Shown piece after piece: positions 5,845 through 31,309 of a stretch of 34,176 nucleotides of DNA. The first letter of the stretch is position 1. Every line of letters starts with the position of its first letter. This DNA is from Acidimicrobiaceae bacterium (GTDB taxonomy: Bacteria > Actinomycetota > Acidimicrobiia > Acidimicrobiales > Bog-793): positions 1-34,176 of the forward strand of contig PMVZ01000247.1 in assembly GCA_003166375.1 (NCBI GenBank), in the 5' to 3' direction. A model generated the notes under the pieces. The model did no database searches. It was not told the origin of the DNA and saw only the letters and a program-made list of their open reading frames with translations. The translations under genes were made by a program, and so were the position numbers.

Positions 5845-7324
5845 GTGACCCAGTGCGGTACTGGCCGTCCACGCGGCGTGGAAGATGAAGGCGGTTTGCG
5901 TCCCGCAAGGCGGCCGGCAGCAGGTGGTCGGGGACGCCTTGGTAGGCGACGGGCCGAAGGAAGCGGCCGATGGCGGCGGCCCCCACGGAGGTGTGCAACG
6001 GTGAGGTGGTGGCCGGGTACGGGCCGCCGTGCTGTATTGCCCAGGTCACGGCCAAGGCGGTCGGCCAGCCGTTCCAGATGATCCGGCCTGCCTTCTCCGC
6101 GAGCGTGTCGAGCAGCCCGGGAACGACCGCGTCGTCGAGCTCGCCGTGAATGGTCGCGGTGAGCTGGCCCTCGAGCATCTCGGCAACCTCGATCAGCTGA
6201 GCTTCCTCGTCATACTCGGCAATGAGCGAGACAGGCCCGAAGCACTCCGCCAAGAGGTGTTCGGAGTCTGAGACAAGTCCCCCGACACTCGTGCGAAGCA
6301 GCGTGGGCGTCCTCGCGCCGTCCGGCTGTCTGCTCCCCTCGGCGATGAGCTCAACGGTCGGACGGTGCCGTAGAGCCTCGAGCCCTTCCTGGTAGGTCCC
6401 GTCGATCCGGTCATTGAGAAGGTGGGTGGCCGGCTGCGCGCCGACCAGCGAGCGCATGCGGTCGCGGTCGAGCAGGCCTTCGGGCAGCAACAAGACGCCG
6501 GGCTGGGTGCAGAACTGCCCGGCCCCCAGGGTGAACGAGGCGACGTAACCGGAGAGGATCTCGTCCAAGCGCGCGGCGGCGGCCCGCATCGTCACGAACA
6601 CCGGGTTCACGCTTCCAAGCTCGCCGTAGAAGGGGATCGGCTTCGGCCGTCCGACGGCGATGTCGAACAGCATTCGTCCCACTTTCGCCGATCCGGTGAA
6701 GGCCACCGCGCTGATACCAGGATGGGTGATGAGGGCGCGGCCGGCTTCGTCGCCTTCGACCACGGTGAACGTGCCATCCGGAGCTCCGGCGTCGTGCAGC
6801 GCGCCACAGACGATCTCCCCGGAGCGGGCGGAAAGCTGGCGGTGACCGGGATGTGCTTTTAGGACCACCGGGCACCCAGCGGCCAGTGCGGAAGCCGAAT
6901 CGCCGCCGGCGACGCTGAACGCGAACGGGAAGTTGCTGGCAGCGAAGACGACAACCGGGCCGAGCGGCCTGAGAAACCGGCGCAGATCCGGCCGCGCTCC
7001 TGGAGGCCAGAGCTCGTCCGGTGTGTCCACGCACGCCTGGAGGTAGTCGCCTTCCTCGATGACGCCGGCGAGGAACCGCAGCTGGAAGGTCGTCCGGAAC
7101 AGCTCCCCACGCAAGCGGGTCTCGGTCAAATGGCTCTCGGTGATCGCCAAGGCGACCAGCTCATCGTCCGCGCCGTCCAACCGGTCGGCGACCGCACGAA
7201 GTATTCCGGCTCTCGTCACCGGATCGAGCATCCGCCACCGGGGGGCGGCGGCAACGGCTCTCTCGACGACATCGGACACCTCGAGAAACGAGGTCTCAGG
7301 AGGATCGGTGTCGGTGTCAGTCAC
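5834..7324 (-). CDS. 2-oxoglutarate-semialdehyde (2,5-dioxopentanoate) dehydrogenase
   Basis: A 496-residue aldehyde dehydrogenase, most like the group oxidising 2-oxoglutarate semialdehyde to 2-oxoglutarate with NAD(P)+. This is the last step of non-phosphorylative pentose and hexuronate breakdown. Visible motifs are ASNFPFAFSVAGGD (oxyanion Asn131), VVLKAHPGH (Lys156), AFTGSAKVG (208-216), FYGELGSVNP (general base Glu235) and GAGQFCTQPG (catalytic Cys272). PFYGELGSVNP and QFCTQPG are characteristic of this branch rather than betaine or succinate-semialdehyde enzymes. GTG 7324 is chosen because AAGGAG lies about eight bases upstream. It is the last gene of the operon, 84 bases after the SDR gene. 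The neighbouring dehydratases that generate its substrate support the assignment. Confidence 0.88.
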   Translation of the reverse strand: MTDTDTDPPETSFLEVSDVVERAVAAAPRWRMLDPVTRAGILRAVADRLDGADDELVALAITESHLTETRLRGELFRTTFQLRFLAGVIEEGDYLQACVDTPDELWPPGARPDLRRFLRPLGPVVVFAASNFPFAFSVAGGDSASALAAGCPVVLKAHPGHRQLSARSGEIVCGALHDAGAPDGTFTVVEGDEAGRALITHPGISAVAFTGSAKVGRMLFDIAVGRPKPIPFYGELGSVNPVFVTMRAAAARLDEILSGYVASFTLGAGQFCTQPGVLLLPEGLLDRDRMRSLVGAQPATHLLNDRIDGTYQEGLEALRHRPTVELIAEGSRQPDGARTPTLLRTSVGGLVSDSEHLLAECFGPVSLIAEYDEEAQLIEVAEMLEGQLTATIHGELDDAVVPGLLDTLAEKAGRIIWNGWPTALAVTWAIQHGGPYPATTSPLHTSVGAAAIGRFLRPVAYQGVPDHLLPAALRDANRLHLPRRVDGQYRTGSPPA

Positions 7325-25050: not shown

Positions 25051-26163
25051 TCAGCCGGACAGCACGCTCAGAGGGTCGACCCAGTCGAGGTCGAGGGCCG
25101 ATGCCACAGCTGCGTTCGTGCAGCTGCCGCGCATTGTGTTGATACCGCCGCGGAGCACCGGGTCCGCCGCCGCCGCCGCCGCCACCCCTCGCTCGACGAG
25201 CTCGACGAGGTAGGGGAATGTGGCGTTGGTGAGCGCATATGTCGAGGTATGCGGCACCACGGCGGGCATGTTCCCGACTGCGTAATGGAGTACGTCATGC
25301 ACGAAGTAGGTGGGGTTCTCATGCGTCGTCTCATGTGTCGTCTCGATGCATCCACCTTGGTCAACGGCGACGTCGACGATGACCGCTCCCGCTCTCATGC
25401 CGGCGACCATCTCGTCGGTGATGACAACCGGCGCCCGCCCACCGGCGACCAGGACGGCGCCGATGACGAGATCAGCCTCGGAGATGGCGCGCTCGATCGA
25501 CCCGCGGTTCGATGCGAGGGTCATGATCCGGCCCTGGTGAATCTGGTCGACCCACCGCAGCCGGTCGATGTCCCGGTCGAGGAGCAGGACCTCGGCCTCC
25601 ATGCCTTGAGCGATCCACGCGGCGTTCCATCCCACGTGGCCGGCTCCGATGATCACCACGCGAGCCGGTCGTACGCCGGGGACGCCACCGAGCAAGATGC
25701 CTCGCGTTCCGTGTGGGGCCTCGAGGAAGTGCGCGCCGACCTGGGTCGCTATCCGACCGGCGACTTCGCTCATCGGAGCGAGAAGGGGCAGGTCGCCCGA
25801 GGGGAGCTGCACGGTCTCGTAGGCAACTCCGGTGGTCCCGGACTCGAGCAGAGCCTTGGCCACGCCCGGGTAGGCGGCGAGGTGGAGGTACGTGAACAAC
25901 ACGAGGTCAGGCCGCAGATACGAAAGCTCGGATTCCTGTGGTTCTTTCACTTTGCAGACAAGCTCCGCAGACCACGCAGTGTCCGCGTCGACCACGGTGG
26001 CTCCGGCGGCGGCGAAATCGGCATCGCTGAGGGACGATCCGGTGCCGGCCCCTGTCTCGACGAGCACCTTGTGGCCGAGCGACGTGAGTCCCCGGACGCC
26101 GTCAGGCGTGATGGCGACTCGGCCCTCCGCGACCTTCACCTCGGCAGGGACCCCGACGATCAT
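25051..26163 (-). CDS. ald: alanine dehydrogenase
   Basis: A 370-residue NAD-dependent enzyme interconverting L-alanine and pyruvate plus ammonia. Key features are the N-terminal GVPAEVKVAEGRVAITP, the pyruvate-binding lysine in CKVKEP (Lys73), TYLHLA (His94), APMSEVAGRIATQ, the NAD motif IIGAGHVG (about 170-177), VDVAVDQGGC and NPTYFVHDVLHYAVGNMPAVVPHTSTYAL split by conserved residues. The ATG start is unambiguous. A run of six alanines (RGVAAAAAAD) is coded by a GCC-rich tract near 25170. It is divergent from murD2, which needs a precursor bearing L-Ala, though Ald more often serves nitrogen metabolism. Confidence 0.94.
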   Translation of the reverse strand: MIVGVPAEVKVAEGRVAITPDGVRGLTSLGHKVLVETGAGTGSSLSDADFAAAGATVVDADTAWSAELVCKVKEPQESELSYLRPDLVLFTYLHLAAYPGVAKALLESGTTGVAYETVQLPSGDLPLLAPMSEVAGRIATQVGAHFLEAPHGTRGILLGGVPGVRPARVVIIGAGHVGWNAAWIAQGMEAEVLLLDRDIDRLRWVDQIHQGRIMTLASNRGSIERAISEADLVIGAVLVAGGRAPVVITDEMVAGMRAGAVIVDVAVDQGGCIETTHETTHENPTYFVHDVLHYAVGNMPAVVPHTSTYALTNATFPYLVELVERGVAAAAAADPVLRGGINTMRGSCTNAAVASALDLDWVDPLSVLSG

Positions 26164-26296
26164 GACAGGTCCGCCTGCTGCTGGCGCGGCGCAGCTACGG
26201 CTGCTTCAGTGATCATGGCTGCCACCTTCTGGTCCCCGACCGCTCGATTGTTCTGAACGCTGCAACGCTACCTTGGTGGCCGCCCGGCTCGCTCCA

Positions 26297-27721
26297 ATGG
26301 CTCGAACGCCTGTGTACCATCGCGGCGTGCCGCTGATAGGAGGTGTGGCGGCGCTCGCTGGTAGTCGCGTCGCGATATTCGGAGCAGGCATGGAAGGTCA
26401 GTCCTTCGCCCGGCGCGTCGGCCCGACCTGCGCCGAGCTTGTCGTCGTCGACGACATTGCGGGCGACGCCAGCGGACTTACGGGACCTCGCCAGGCGGTC
26501 GAGACCGAGTCGGCCGGGATCGATGTGCAGCCTCCGTCGGTCCTCGAAGATCGCCGTTTCGACTTCGTCGTCCACTCGCCGGGGATCTCGCGCTACGACG
26601 AACGCCTTGCAGCCGCGGCCCGGCTCGGGGCGGTGGTGACGACTCCGACCGCGCTGTTCATGGAGGACTTCCGGGACAGACGGGTAGTGGCCGTGACCGG
26701 TTCCAAAGGCAAGACGACCACTGCGATGCTCACAGCTGCTGCTCTCGGCGCCTACGGTCTCGACGTCGCTCTTGCCGGCAACATCGGCCGTCCCTTGACC
26801 GAGCTGTACGACGACCACGCCCATGACGTGTTCGTCCTCGAGATCTCGAGCTTTCAGGCTGCAGACGTGACGGTGTCGCCCTCGGTCGGCGTTCTCACGC
26901 TGCTGGCGCCGGACCACCTCGACTGGCATCGGAACCTCGAGAACTACTACGAGGACAAGCTCCGCCTGTTCTCGCATCGCGCCGATGTTCCCGTTGCGGT
27001 GAACGGATGCTGCGACGAGGCCGTCGCCCGGAGCTCCTCGCTGGCAGGCAGGGTCCTCTACGGCAACAGTGGTCCGGTGCGCCTCGACCGAGCCCAGGTC
27101 GTGGCGTCCGATCTCGGGCCCTTGGACCTAGGGGCGTTTCAACTGTTGGGCGAGCACAACCTCGTCAATGCCTGTGGTGCAATTACGGCCGCTCTCCTGG
27201 TCACCGGGGAGCTGCCCGATCAGAAACGGCTCGAACGCGAGCTCTCTCTCGTGACGGCGCCCCGTTCGAGGCTCGAGCCGATCGGCGACGTCGGCGGCGT
27301 CAGCTACATCGACGACGCGCTCGCGAGCAACCCGGAGGGGACGGTCGCAGCAGTGAAGGCTTTCGCCGGAACACGAGTGGCGTTGATCGTTGGAGGGCAC
27401 GACCGTGGCCTTGACTACGCACCGCTTGCCCGGGTGATCGATTCAAGCCTGCCGCAGCCGGTCGTATTCTGGATCGGGGACGCCGGCGCCGCGATCGCGA
27501 CGGCACTCGACGACATCTCGAGCCACGTCCAACGCCAACAAGTGCCGTCGCTCGAGGTTGCGGTCGACCTGGCGTCCTCCCGTCCGGACATCGCGGTCGT
27601 GCTGTTCTCGCCGGCATCGCCGACTCCCCGTGACGAAGGCTCCTACCTCGATCGCAGCCGGCGATTCAGGCAGGTCGCCGGCATCGGAGAAGGCCACTCG
27701 AGCCGCGTGGGGACCCTGTGA
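26297..27721 (+). CDS. murD2: MurD2-type UDP-MurNAc-L-Ala:L-glutamate ligase
   Basis: A 474-residue Mur ligase. The N-terminal Rossmann part has VAIFGAGMEGQSFARR. The ATPase has TGSKGKTTT (134-142), LEISSFQAAD (181-190) and APDHLDWH (204-211). The C-terminal domain has GGHDRGLDYAPLA. The usual MurD NDSKATNP is here DDALASNPEGT. Immediate coupling to MurL (GTGA overlap at 27718-27721) argues that it adds L-Glu, not D-Glu, to UDP-MurNAc-L-Ala, as in the MurD2/MurL pathway. Start choice is uncertain: ATG 26297 is preferred, while GTG 26327 is possible and GTG 26345 sits too close to its AGGAGG. Confidence 0.85.
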   Translation: MARTPVYHRGVPLIGGVAALAGSRVAIFGAGMEGQSFARRVGPTCAELVVVDDIAGDASGLTGPRQAVETESAGIDVQPPSVLEDRRFDFVVHSPGISRYDERLAAAARLGAVVTTPTALFMEDFRDRRVVAVTGSKGKTTTAMLTAAALGAYGLDVALAGNIGRPLTELYDDHAHDVFVLEISSFQAADVTVSPSVGVLTLLAPDHLDWHRNLENYYEDKLRLFSHRADVPVAVNGCCDEAVARSSSLAGRVLYGNSGPVRLDRAQVVASDLGPLDLGAFQLLGEHNLVNACGAITAALLVTGELPDQKRLERELSLVTAPRSRLEPIGDVGGVSYIDDALASNPEGTVAAVKAFAGTRVALIVGGHDRGLDYAPLARVIDSSLPQPVVFWIGDAGAAIATALDDISSHVQRQQVPSLEVAVDLASSRPDIAVVLFSPASPTPRDEGSYLDRSRRFRQVAGIGEGHSSRVGTL

Positions 27722-29142
27722 CGGCGCCTGAGTTGGCGACCGTCGAGACGTTCAGGATCGTCAGCTTCGACTTCGACGCTGCACGCAACATTGCCCGTTT
27801 CAACTACGCCTTCGACGGCACCCATAGCTTTCAGGAGGTCGTCGAGTTCGGTGGGTCTCCGCTCGGTTCGCGTGCAGGGCCCGGCATCGAGAGCGCGTTA
27901 CGGCTCCTGCATCTCGCTGCGGGCGTCAGTTACTACAAAGCGGCGGCGCCGGGAAGGATCGTCATCGAGACCGGCCCGCTCAGCAGCGGGGAGGCGGGGC
28001 TCGTCCACGACTTGTACGACAAGGGCCTGCGCGAGTTCGCGGTGACGAACGGCCTGGACGTGCCACTTCAGTTCGAGGTGGAGGCGGAACACGAGCCAGG
28101 ATCGGTGGCCCGGGCCGAGGCACTCGGCGAGGCCCCAGCGTCCCCGCCGGCTACAGGGCACTGTCATGACGCCCCCGGGGAGGGAGTCGCGGTGCCCATC
28201 GGCGGTGGGAAGGACTCGATCGTGCTGGTCGAGGCCCTGAAGGCAGCGAACCCGCCACCCGGGCTCGCGACCTGGCTGGTCGCGGTCAACTCGAAACCCG
28301 CCATGAAGCGCACCGCGGACGTTGCCGGCCTGCCGCTCGCCTCGATCACAAGGACCGTCTCGCCCCGGTTGATCGAGCTCAACTCGGCCGGGGCGCTCAA
28401 CGGCCACGTGCCGATCACAGCGATCGTGTCGCTGATCGTCGTGGCAGCGGGGTACGTCTACGGATATGACACGGCGCTCATGGCACTGGAACGCTCGGCC
28501 GACGAGGCCACCTCGTTCGTCGAGGACGCCGCGGTCAACCACCAGTGGAGCAAGAGCACAGAATGCGAGCTCGGGCTGCGGTCTGTGATCCGAGAATCGG
28601 TCTCCCGTGCGATCGAGTACTCCTCGCCATTGCGTTCGTGCGGTGAGATCGAGATCGCGAGGTGGTTCGCGGACCTGCCCGCCTACCACGCCGGGTTTCG
28701 AAGCTGCAATCAGGTGTATCGCTCCGACGCTCACTTCGATGCCTGGTGCGGGCGGTGCCCCAAGTGCCGGTTCGTGTTCCTGATGCTTGCCCCGTTTCTC
28801 GATCCCGATCGCCTCGCGGCGATCTTCGGTGAGAACCTCCTCGAGAACCTCCAGCAGGTCGAGGGATTCAGGGACTTGTTCGCCGCCGGGCGCAAGCCTT
28901 ACGAATGCGTCGGAGAGCAGCGCGAGTCGTTGCTTGCTTTCCTGCTCCTGCTCGAGAACCCCAAGTGGCGAGACGCCGCCGTTGTCGTGGCACTCCAGCC
29001 CGAGCTCGAGCAGAGCCGTCGGGGTGTCGTTGTGGATCTCGATGGCGATGTCCCTGTGATCGAGAGTGCAGAAGCAACCCGAGAGCGAGTCGTGAGGTTC
29101 GTCGCGCAGCTGCTGACGCGCGATCGAAGTCCGGAGCCGTGA
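27718..29142 (+). CDS. murL: MurL-type UDP-MurNAc-L-Ala-L-Glu epimerase
   Basis: A 474-residue protein matching the MurL family, which inverts the terminal L-Glu of UDP-MurNAc-L-Ala-L-Glu to D-Glu in an ATP-dependent reaction. Sequence landmarks are a PP-loop-like IGGGKDSIVLVEAL (GGGKDS at 162-167), AVNSKPAMKRTADVAGLP, LNGHVPITAIVSL (228-240), NHQWSKSTECE and a cysteine cluster WCGRCPKC (343-350). There is no membrane segment. The GTG start overlaps the murD2 stop. This pathway lets a cell make the D-Glu of peptidoglycan without glutamate racemase MurI. Confidence 0.88.
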   Translation: MTAPELATVETFRIVSFDFDAARNIARFNYAFDGTHSFQEVVEFGGSPLGSRAGPGIESALRLLHLAAGVSYYKAAAPGRIVIETGPLSSGEAGLVHDLYDKGLREFAVTNGLDVPLQFEVEAEHEPGSVARAEALGEAPASPPATGHCHDAPGEGVAVPIGGGKDSIVLVEALKAANPPPGLATWLVAVNSKPAMKRTADVAGLPLASITRTVSPRLIELNSAGALNGHVPITAIVSLIVVAAGYVYGYDTALMALERSADEATSFVEDAAVNHQWSKSTECELGLRSVIRESVSRAIEYSSPLRSCGEIEIARWFADLPAYHAGFRSCNQVYRSDAHFDAWCGRCPKCRFVFLMLAPFLDPDRLAAIFGENLLENLQQVEGFRDLFAAGRKPYECVGEQRESLLAFLLLLENPKWRDAAVVVALQPELEQSRRGVVVDLDGDVPVIESAEATRERVVRFVAQLLTRDRSPEP

Positions 29143-29281: not shown

Positions 29282-31309
29282 ATGATCCTCGACTCCATCC
29301 ACTCACCTTCCGATCTCAGGGCCCTCTCGCTCGTCGAGTGCGACCAGCTCGCGGCCGAGATCCGCGACTTCATCGTGGAGGCAGTGTCGCGTACCGGTGG
29401 GCACCTCGGTTCGAACCTCGGTGTTGTCGAGCTGACGCTTGCGCTGCACCGGGTCTTCAAGTCTCCCGAGGACATTCTCCTGTTCGACACCGGCCATCAG
29501 GCTTACGTCCACAAGCTCGTGACGGGGCGCCGCGAAGGCTTCGTCGGCCTCAAGCAGGAAGGTGGGCTCTCGGGCTACCCGTCGAGGGCGGAGTCCCCCC
29601 ATGACTGGGTCGAGAACTCCCATGCCTCGACAGCTCTCAGCTACGCGCACGGCATCGCCACGGCTCTTAGTCTGGAGGGCAAGAGCGATCCGGCAAGTGG
29701 AGGACGTCACGTCGTGGCGGTGGTCGGCGACGGCGCTCTCACCGGCGGGATGGCCTATGAGGCGCTCAACAACCTCGGCCATTCCAGCACCAGGGTGCTG
29801 GTCGTGCTCAATGACAACGGTCGAAGCTACGCACCGACGGTCTCGAGGCTGTCGGTCTCGCTGACCCAGTTACGGCTGGACCCGCGCTACTTGCAAGTAC
29901 GTGATCGGGTGCGCCATCTGGTGGAGGACCTTCCGGGCGGCGTCTCGTCGCTCGCGTTCACTTCGTTCCATGGGCTGAGTGCGGCCATCCGGGAGGTCGT
30001 CGAGCCGCGGATGTTCTTCGAGGCGCTCGGAATCCGCTACACGGGACCCATCGACGGCCACGACGTCGGCGCGCTCGAGCAGGCCCTGCGCCGAGCCGCG
30101 AGCTGGCAAGGCCCCATCGTCCTTCATGTCGTCACCACCAAGGGGAAGGGCTACGCGCCTGCAGAGGCTGACGAGATCGCCTGCCTCCACGACCTGAAGC
30201 CTGCGTCGCCGGCACCGGCGAGCCGGTCCGGCGGACACCCGTCGGCACGTCCGGGGTCTCAGCAGGTTGCCGGGTCTCAGGTGACGGGGTCGACCGACGA
30301 CGACGGGTTGCCCGGCCCCGTCGATGCCGGGGAGAGCTACGCCGAGATCTTCTCGACTGCGCTCGTGGATCTGGCCGCCTCCGACGAGCGCATAGTGGCG
30401 ATCACCGCAGCTATGCCCGGCCCGACTGGGCTTCTGGCGTTCCAGGATCGTTACCCGCATCGCTTCATGGACGTCGGCATCGCCGAGCAGCACGCGCTCA
30501 CAGCTGCGGCTGGGATGGCGATGAGCGGCCTGCGTCCGGTCGTCGCCGTGTACTCGACGTTCCTCGGCCGAGCGGTGGACCAGTGGAACCTCGACATCGG
30601 GCTTCACAAGCTGCCGGTCGTGATCTGCGCCGGCCGGGCGGGGGTCACCGGGGATGACGGGCCGAGCCATCACGGCATCTACGACCTTGTCCAAGCGCTG
30701 CAGATACCAGGTTGCACGATCTTCTGCCCAGCCGAGACCGCCGAGATCGCCCCGATGCTCGCCGAAGCACTCAAGCTCGACGGTCCCTCTTTGATCCGGT
30801 TCCCGAAGACGCCGTCGCCGGGTCCGCTCGCCACGCCGGGGACCGGGCTCAAGGCCCGCAAGCTCCGAAAGGGGACTGGCGAGGTTGTCCTCGTTGGCGT
30901 CGGCAAGATGACGCGTGCGGTTCTCGCAGCGGCGGAGGAGCTTTTCAACGACGGCATCGAGACAGACGTCTTCGACGTCAGGGTCGTCCGCCCGGCCGAC
31001 CCCGACCTGCTGGAGGCGATCGCACGCTCGAGACTCGTCGTCACCGCCGAGGACGGGCTCGCTCATGGTGGAGCCGGCTCTTATCTCGTCGGCGAGGCCG
31101 ATCGCGTCGCCGACGCAAGCGCGCTCGATGGACCGCGCCAGGTCGTGCTCGGCGTCCCGACGGAATTCTTGAGGCACGCCAAGCCTGACGTGATCCTTTC
31201 CCGGCTCGGGCTAGATGGCGCTGGAATCGCGGAGGTCACGCGTAGGGCGCTCGCGAGGCGCCGGCGGATCGAGCGAGCGCAGCAGGCCGAACCGCTCAAG
31301 CAGGGCTGA
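29282..31309 (+). CDS. dxs: 1-deoxy-D-xylulose-5-phosphate synthase
   Basis: A 675-residue thiamine-diphosphate enzyme joining pyruvate and glyceraldehyde 3-phosphate, the first step of the MEP isoprenoid pathway. Motifs are GGHLGSNLGVVELT (His41), DTGHQAYVHK, the ThDP/Mg motif GDGALTGGMAYEALNN (149-164) with NDNGRSYAPTVSRL, TTKGKGYAPAE and catalytic Glu402 in DVGIAEQHA. The Ala/Pro/Ser/Gly-rich segment at about 305-350, where the two halves join, is longer and less ordered than usual. ATG 29282 lacks a clear ribosome site. TAGCCT about 17 bases upstream may be a -10 box, which would give a very short leader. Confidence 0.95.
   Translation: MILDSIHSPSDLRALSLVECDQLAAEIRDFIVEAVSRTGGHLGSNLGVVELTLALHRVFKSPEDILLFDTGHQAYVHKLVTGRREGFVGLKQEGGLSGYPSRAESPHDWVENSHASTALSYAHGIATALSLEGKSDPASGGRHVVAVVGDGALTGGMAYEALNNLGHSSTRVLVVLNDNGRSYAPTVSRLSVSLTQLRLDPRYLQVRDRVRHLVEDLPGGVSSLAFTSFHGLSAAIREVVEPRMFFEALGIRYTGPIDGHDVGALEQALRRAASWQGPIVLHVVTTKGKGYAPAEADEIACLHDLKPASPAPASRSGGHPSARPGSQQVAGSQVTGSTDDDGLPGPVDAGESYAEIFSTALVDLAASDERIVAITAAMPGPTGLLAFQDRYPHRFMDVGIAEQHALTAAAGMAMSGLRPVVAVYSTFLGRAVDQWNLDIGLHKLPVVICAGRAGVTGDDGPSHHGIYDLVQALQIPGCTIFCPAETAEIAPMLAEALKLDGPSLIRFPKTPSPGPLATPGTGLKARKLRKGTGEVVLVGVGKMTRAVLAAAEELFNDGIETDVFDVRVVRPADPDLLEAIARSRLVVTAEDGLAHGGAGSYLVGEADRVADASALDGPRQVVLGVPTEFLRHAKPDVILSRLGLDGAGIAEVTRRALARRRRIERAQQAEPLKQG

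Follow-up and report, generated by a model that had tools for sequence, protein, structure and literature searches.

The window, a contig of 34,176 nucleotides from the draft genome of an acidimicrobial soil bacterium, carries a real MurD2-MurL pair, which adds a lineage to those in which this pathway was known and shows a residue-level variant of it. On the evidence of gene content and sequence comparison, murD2 and murL are very probably the organism's only detectable route to the D-Glu of peptidoglycan. L-Glu would be ligated to the wall precursor by MurD2 and then inverted in place by MurL. These reactions were established in Xanthomonas, where L-Glu ligation, an ATP-dependent one-way epimerisation and AMP formation have been shown (PMC8788868, PMC5808125), and the Micromonospora and Salinispora orthologues of both proteins have been confirmed in vitro (PMC8788868). 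The initial annotation had proposed that L-Glu is added and then inverted on the precursor, replacing MurI and MurD. This proposal is supported by the lack of MurI and of a second MurD in the genome, by the mutual exclusion of MurL and MurI among relatives, and by the changed residues of the ligase. The MurI-free route to peptidoglycan D-Glu is thereby extended to the Acidimicrobiia, and the change in MurD specificity and the exchange of MurI for MurL are found to coincide within a single bacterial family. Also new here is the QueC/QatC-like fold predicted for MurL, which may serve as a mechanistic lead.

The murD2-murL Locus

The genes of a MurD-family ligase and a MurL-family epimerase lie on the same strand and overlap by four bases, GTGA (Table 1), an arrangement that suggests translational coupling. 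The initial annotation had described a Mur ligase overlapping a MurL-type epimerase, and both genes are indeed present there, with matches to TIGR01087 and NF041275, respectively. The full open reading frame of the ligase spans 26273..27721 (+) and offers three in-frame starts: TTG at 26273, ATG at 26297 and GTG at 26312. GTG appears the likelier start, because the open reading frame of the sister locus L047 begins at the matching codon; ATG and TTG are the alternatives. The epimerase aligns with nearly the whole of NF041275 (MurL_Xanthomonadales; 362.8 bits, E 1.9e-108, residues 8-430). It falls below the 700-bit cutoff of that profile, which is specific to the order Xanthomonadales and is reached by none of the class-sample genomes. 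The protein is about 38-44% identical to the MurL of Xanthomonadales and Micromonosporaceae.

Table 1. Features of the murD2-murL locus (positions in the window)
Feature	Position	Strand	Evidence
ald, alanine dehydrogenase, divergent upstream	25051..26163	-	TIGR00518, 489 bits
murD2 ligase	26312..27721	+	TIGR01087 246.7 bits (cutoff 211.95); Mur_ligase_M and Mur_ligase_C
MurD2, Asp at E. coli Asp182 / X. oryzae Glu197 position	26912..26914	+	alignment
MurD2, DDALASNP motif, aligned with E. coli NDSKATN; Leu (27320-27322) at E. coli Lys319 position	27311..27334	+	alignment
MurD2, Arg at E. coli Lys348 / X. oryzae Arg358 position	27404..27406	+	alignment
GTGA stop/start overlap murD2/murL	27718..27721	+	sequence; also at L045 and L047 junctions
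murL epimerase	27718..29142	+	GTG start; NF041275 match
MurL, GGGKDS, PP-loop pyrophosphate-binding motif (residues 162-167)	28201..28218	+	invariant in 49 MurLs; fold match
MurL, Cys330-x13-Cys344-x2-Cys347-x2-Cys350, predicted zinc site	28705..28767	+	four Cys invariant in both alignments
dxs, 1-deoxy-D-xylulose-5-phosphate synthase, downstream	29282..31309	+	TIGR00204, 551.6 bits

Search for Other Sources of D-Glu in the Host Genome

The host genome is a draft of 3.67 Mb in 397 contigs, with 84% completeness and 0.85% contamination. MurI gave no match over the cutoff in this 84% complete genome, the best TIGR00067 match reaching 32.5 bits against a cutoff of 146.65. This match is a YgeA-like amino-acid racemase (PRK10200/TIGR00035) fused to a GNAT acetyltransferase in one open reading frame (L001 1483-2646, contig C342). 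It was considered as a MurI and ruled out on account of its PRK10200/TIGR00035 type and its low TIGR00067 score. D-Amino-acid transaminase (Dat) was not found above cutoff in any of the 35 family genomes, host included; the host genome, at its 84% completeness, shows neither MurI nor Dat above cutoff.

The ligase in the window is the sole murD; no second one was found in the host genome. The dcw cluster on contig C59 reads ftsI-murE-mraY-ftsW-murG-murC-murB-ftsQ-ftsZ (gene names read by eye except murE and murC). At the usual place of murD, between mraY and ftsW, there is no gene, mraY being followed directly by ftsW with no run of N. Matches on C59 at 6249-7098, considered as a degenerate canonical murD, proved to be murC split by a 2-base N run. 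The initial annotation had called for a check of murI and of a canonical murD, and neither turned up. MurE is the L-Ala-D-Glu-type DAP ligase (436.9 bits, cutoff 373), and therefore the host still requires D-Glu. The dcw cluster (L025 2875-3842, contig C59) also lacks murF between murE and mraY, and a MurF-like Mur ligase is located on contig C344 (L027).

These data bear on a different explanation, in which the ligase would be an ordinary MurD for D-Glu that is located outside the dcw cluster, D-Glu is supplied by the YgeA-like racemase or by a MurI in the unsampled part of the genome, and the MurL-like protein has another role. The presence of a TIGR00035/PRK10200 racemase and the incompleteness of the genome are in its favor. 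However, the racemase is not a MurI by its score, and the sister genomes G205 and G207 have no TIGR00067 match whatever. Since the host genome is 84% complete, the absence of MurI rests partly on the relatives.

Mutual Exclusion of MurL and MurI

Among 35 genomes of the family, MurL is present in 8. MurI exceeds the cutoff in 25 of the 27 others and in none of the 8 MurL genomes (Fisher p 1.9e-6). A class sample of 198 genomes contains MurL in 17 and MurI over cutoff in 113, with no overlap (p 2.1e-7); the genomes behind both p-values are related, so that independence is overstated. The same 17 genomes were recovered with a 49-sequence MurL profile. Fourteen of the 17 reach at least 90% completeness with no more than 5% contamination, and they too lack MurI. 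The exclusion argues further against an ordinary MurD supplied by a MurI that was not sampled.

The 8 MurL genomes of the family belong to the genus of the window (4), g112 (3) and g114 (1). In the MurL tree, the window's genus groups with other acidimicrobial bins, and the members of g112 and g114 group with family f5. This separate placement means that one family holds at least two MurL lineages.

Several class genomes of 92-99% completeness lack MurL as well as MurI over cutoff; the class genomes without both are G145, G169, G181, G187, G005, G011, G017, G082, G144, G176, G189, G090 and G133. In 12 genomes of this kind the MurD could be read, and Lys319 and Lys348 were kept. No hidden divergent MurL was found in them with the 49-member profile. 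Proteins of about 422 residues with a PP-loop in two such genomes were considered as divergent MurLs but were read by eye as TilS adjoining a phosphoribosyltransferase gene.

Specificity Residues of the Ligase

The importance of three ligase positions is known from mutants and natural variants. The combined E197D/R358K exchange switches X. oryzae MurD2 to D-Glu, and E197D alters its stereospecificity. Conversely, E. coli MurD K319T gains acceptance of L-Glu, and S. mutans MurD, which has Arg at the Lys348 site, accepts L-Glu slightly (PMC8788868). According to our alignment, all 95 MurL-linked ligases have Ile, Leu or Phe in place of Lys319, and the 94 that could be read at Lys348 all have Arg there; the window ligase has Leu and Arg. 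In contrast, all 25 MurDs compared from MurL-free genomes of the family have Lys at both positions. The motif DDALASNP in place of NDSKATNP, pointed out in the initial annotation, is present and contains the change of Lys319 to Leu.

The Glu197 position is more variable, with Glu in 59, Asp in 34 and Cys in 2 of the 95 MurL-linked ligases. Glu is found in Proteobacteria, Micromonospora and others. Asp occurs in the window, in nearly all class members and in three further ligases; both MurL-MurD2 fusions have Cys. The window ligase thus has two of the three specificity changes, the loss of Lys319 and the exchange of Lys348 for Arg. The third, Glu at the Asp182 position, is a trait of the X. oryzae enzyme and need not define the family. 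Because Asp stands at the Glu197 position, leaving Arg alone of the two X. oryzae switch residues, we strongly infer, rather than regard as proven, that the ligase uses L-Glu.

An Asp182 of the canonical type would suit an ordinary D-Glu MurD. The loss of both Lys319 and Lys348 would not, nor would the score of the ligase (about 247 bits, where most MurDs from MurI genomes of the family reach about 335-400) or the adjacency of the pair across phyla. We therefore consider an ordinary MurD very improbable. A variant compatible with the MurD2-MurL route is that the mixed Asp and Arg site accepts both L- and D-Glu, a relaxed intermediate whose L product is converted by MurL. The Asp of almost every class member that was read (the two fusions have Cys), the effect of E197D in X. 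oryzae and the slight L-Glu acceptance of S. mutans MurD make such relaxation conceivable. However, the Leu that replaces Lys319 may compensate, and as no D-Glu source was found, only the L-Glu activity would matter in the cell. We regard this variant as rather unlikely, though less so than an ordinary MurD. Loss of Lys319 together with Arg at Lys348 provides a simple sequence rule by which MurDs that add L-Glu, at present scored as ordinary MurD, can be recognized.

Insertion Site of the Pair

The same-genus relatives carry the NCBI label Acidimicrobiaceae (isolates fen_548, bog_808 and bog_560; class Acidimicrobiia, phylum Actinomycetota). The order ald-murD2-murL-dxs-HMCES is common to all four species of the genus, with 78-98% identity in the other three (G207, G206 and G205; loci L045, L046 and L047). 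The two proteins of fen_548 are about 91% identical to those of the window. As the pair and its neighbors are conserved in three other species, neither chance nor a binning error accounts for it. Thus, even for a draft assembly of 397 contigs, the idea that the contig was binned in error and that the pair comes from another organism is barely credible; the low contamination and the lack of another murD in the bin also speak against it.

In the genus of the window, murD2-murL lies exactly between ald and dxs. Elsewhere, ald and dxs are direct divergent neighbors about 280-600 bases apart without the pair between them (L192 in G221, L193 in G213 and L195 in G220), and G220 has its own murL-murD2 on a different contig from its ald-dxs. 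None of 12 loci checked from other genera has ald beside the pair. The initial annotation had pointed out that the divergent neighbor ald interconverts L-Ala, the residue before Glu in the stem. Since the ald-dxs neighborhood exists in relatives without the pair, the link is positional and gives no evidence for the pathway, and ald was ruled out as a functional partner. The two genes are the flanks of the insertion site, and ald is outside the pathway. An ancestor of the genus would have acquired both genes together at the ald-dxs junction, and murD would have been lost from the dcw cluster.

Gene Order and Comparison with Known Pairs

Gene ARRANGEMENTS could be compared at the 91 loci where murL and murD2 were both readable: 84 have murL-murD2, 4 have murD2-murL, 1 has the genes on opposite strands (L105, Micromonospora) and 2 are fusions in a single open reading frame. 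The murD2-murL order comprises three loci of the window's own genus and L083, with the window as a further case. The fusions, of about 861-866 residues, are MurL-MurD2 proteins of two class relatives from one family (L029 in G166 and L032 in G009). A MurD that is adjacent, on the opposite strand or fused accompanies 91 of the 96 MurL loci read; the remaining five include several that are short or stop close to murL. The adjacency is kept across phyla. A genome scan yielded at least 580 confirmed MurL stretches in several phyla. Therefore, the earlier statement that the route is known in few groups holds in that the route is uncommon but understates its spread. Locus L083, from a record titled Candidatus Saccharibacteria bacterium, has Phe at the Lys319 position; it could be a mislabelled bin.

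The X. oryzae pair (XOO_1320 / XOO_1319; PMC8788868, PMC5808125) resembles that of the window in the adjacency of a MurD-family ligase and MurL, in the absence of MurI and Dat, and in Arg at the Lys348 position. In the related loci read from Stenotrophomonas and other Xanthomonadales, Lys319 is likewise replaced, and MurL has the invariant motifs found in the window. X. oryzae differs in its murL-murD2 order and in having Glu rather than Asp at the Glu197 position, and the window's host is an acidimicrobial actinobacterium, a group absent from the review's list (PMC8788868). The assayed Micromonospora and Salinispora proteins (PMC8788868) are actinobacterial members of the same pair. Micromonospora L105, however, has Glu at the Glu197 position besides its opposite-strand arrangement, and its MurD2 is 33% identical to that of the window. 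We found no report of MurL in Acidimicrobiia in the openly accessible literature.

Predicted Fold and Possible Mechanism of MurL

MurL has been described as having no known domains and as consuming ATP to form AMP by an unclear mechanism (PMC8788868, a 2021 review; PMC5808125). We found no solved MurL structure in the PDB. GGGKDS and the four-cysteine motif are invariant in 49 MurLs. In divergent class MurLs the Lys of GGGKDS varies, and G162-G164, D166 and S167 are invariant. The motif aligns with SGGKDS of the PP-loop enzyme TtuA and corresponds to the SGGxDS loop with the first Ser replaced by Gly.

An AlphaFold2 model of the window MurL (pLDDT 90.9) was compared with PP-loop proteins by VIA-align. 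QatC gave Z 17.4 over 318 residues, N-terminal part included, followed by QueC (Z 13.3) and Cap9 (Z 13.2), whereas other PP-loop families gave Z 7-9. Plain Foldseek returned no match at E <= 0.001, Pfam no QueC (PF06508) match, and hhalign against QueC aligned the loop region alone (probability 3.6%, E 0.012), so these searches did not furnish sequence-level proof of QueC homology. Because hhalign is confined to the loop and Foldseek is not significant, MurL is best described as QueC-like in its predicted fold, with a PP-loop motif, and not as a proven member of PF06508. The spacing C-x13-CxxCxxC in MurL takes the place of C(x)8CxxCxxC in QueC (PMC13329287); beyond the loop, no sequence similarity to QueC, QatC or Cap9 is detectable. 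The reactions also differ, MurL catalyzing epimerisation and the others forming amides or nitriles or conjugating proteins.

The predicted fold suggests how ATP may drive the epimerisation. QueC acts with ATP on CDG, a carboxylate substrate (PMC13329287), which by analogy fits the biochemistry of MurL, and the step from ATP to AMP would take place at the PP-loop. We propose, as a reasonably probable but bolder reading, that a QueC-like PP-loop enzyme has been repurposed as MurL and activates the terminal carboxylate of L-Glu by adenylation, making the C-alpha acidic, with ATP driving the epimerisation one way. In the same proposal, acidimicrobial MurD2s would achieve selectivity for L-Glu in a second way, retaining Asp182 but having Leu for Lys319 and Arg for Lys348, and the MurL-MurD2 fusion of one sublineage would serve to channel the intermediate. 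The QueC-like fold offers a specific explanation, open to testing, of the coupling between ATP and epimerisation in MurL. In the openly accessible literature we found no link between MurL and QueC, and the words epimerase and peptidoglycan are absent from the 2026 QueC family paper (PMC13329287). MurL was also considered as a defence protein, but PADLOC gave no match. A separate QatC-like PP-loop protein (ALLSGGVDS ... CGVCVPC) is encoded in the relative G051 (L206 676-1974), where it possibly belongs to a qatABCD-type defence locus.
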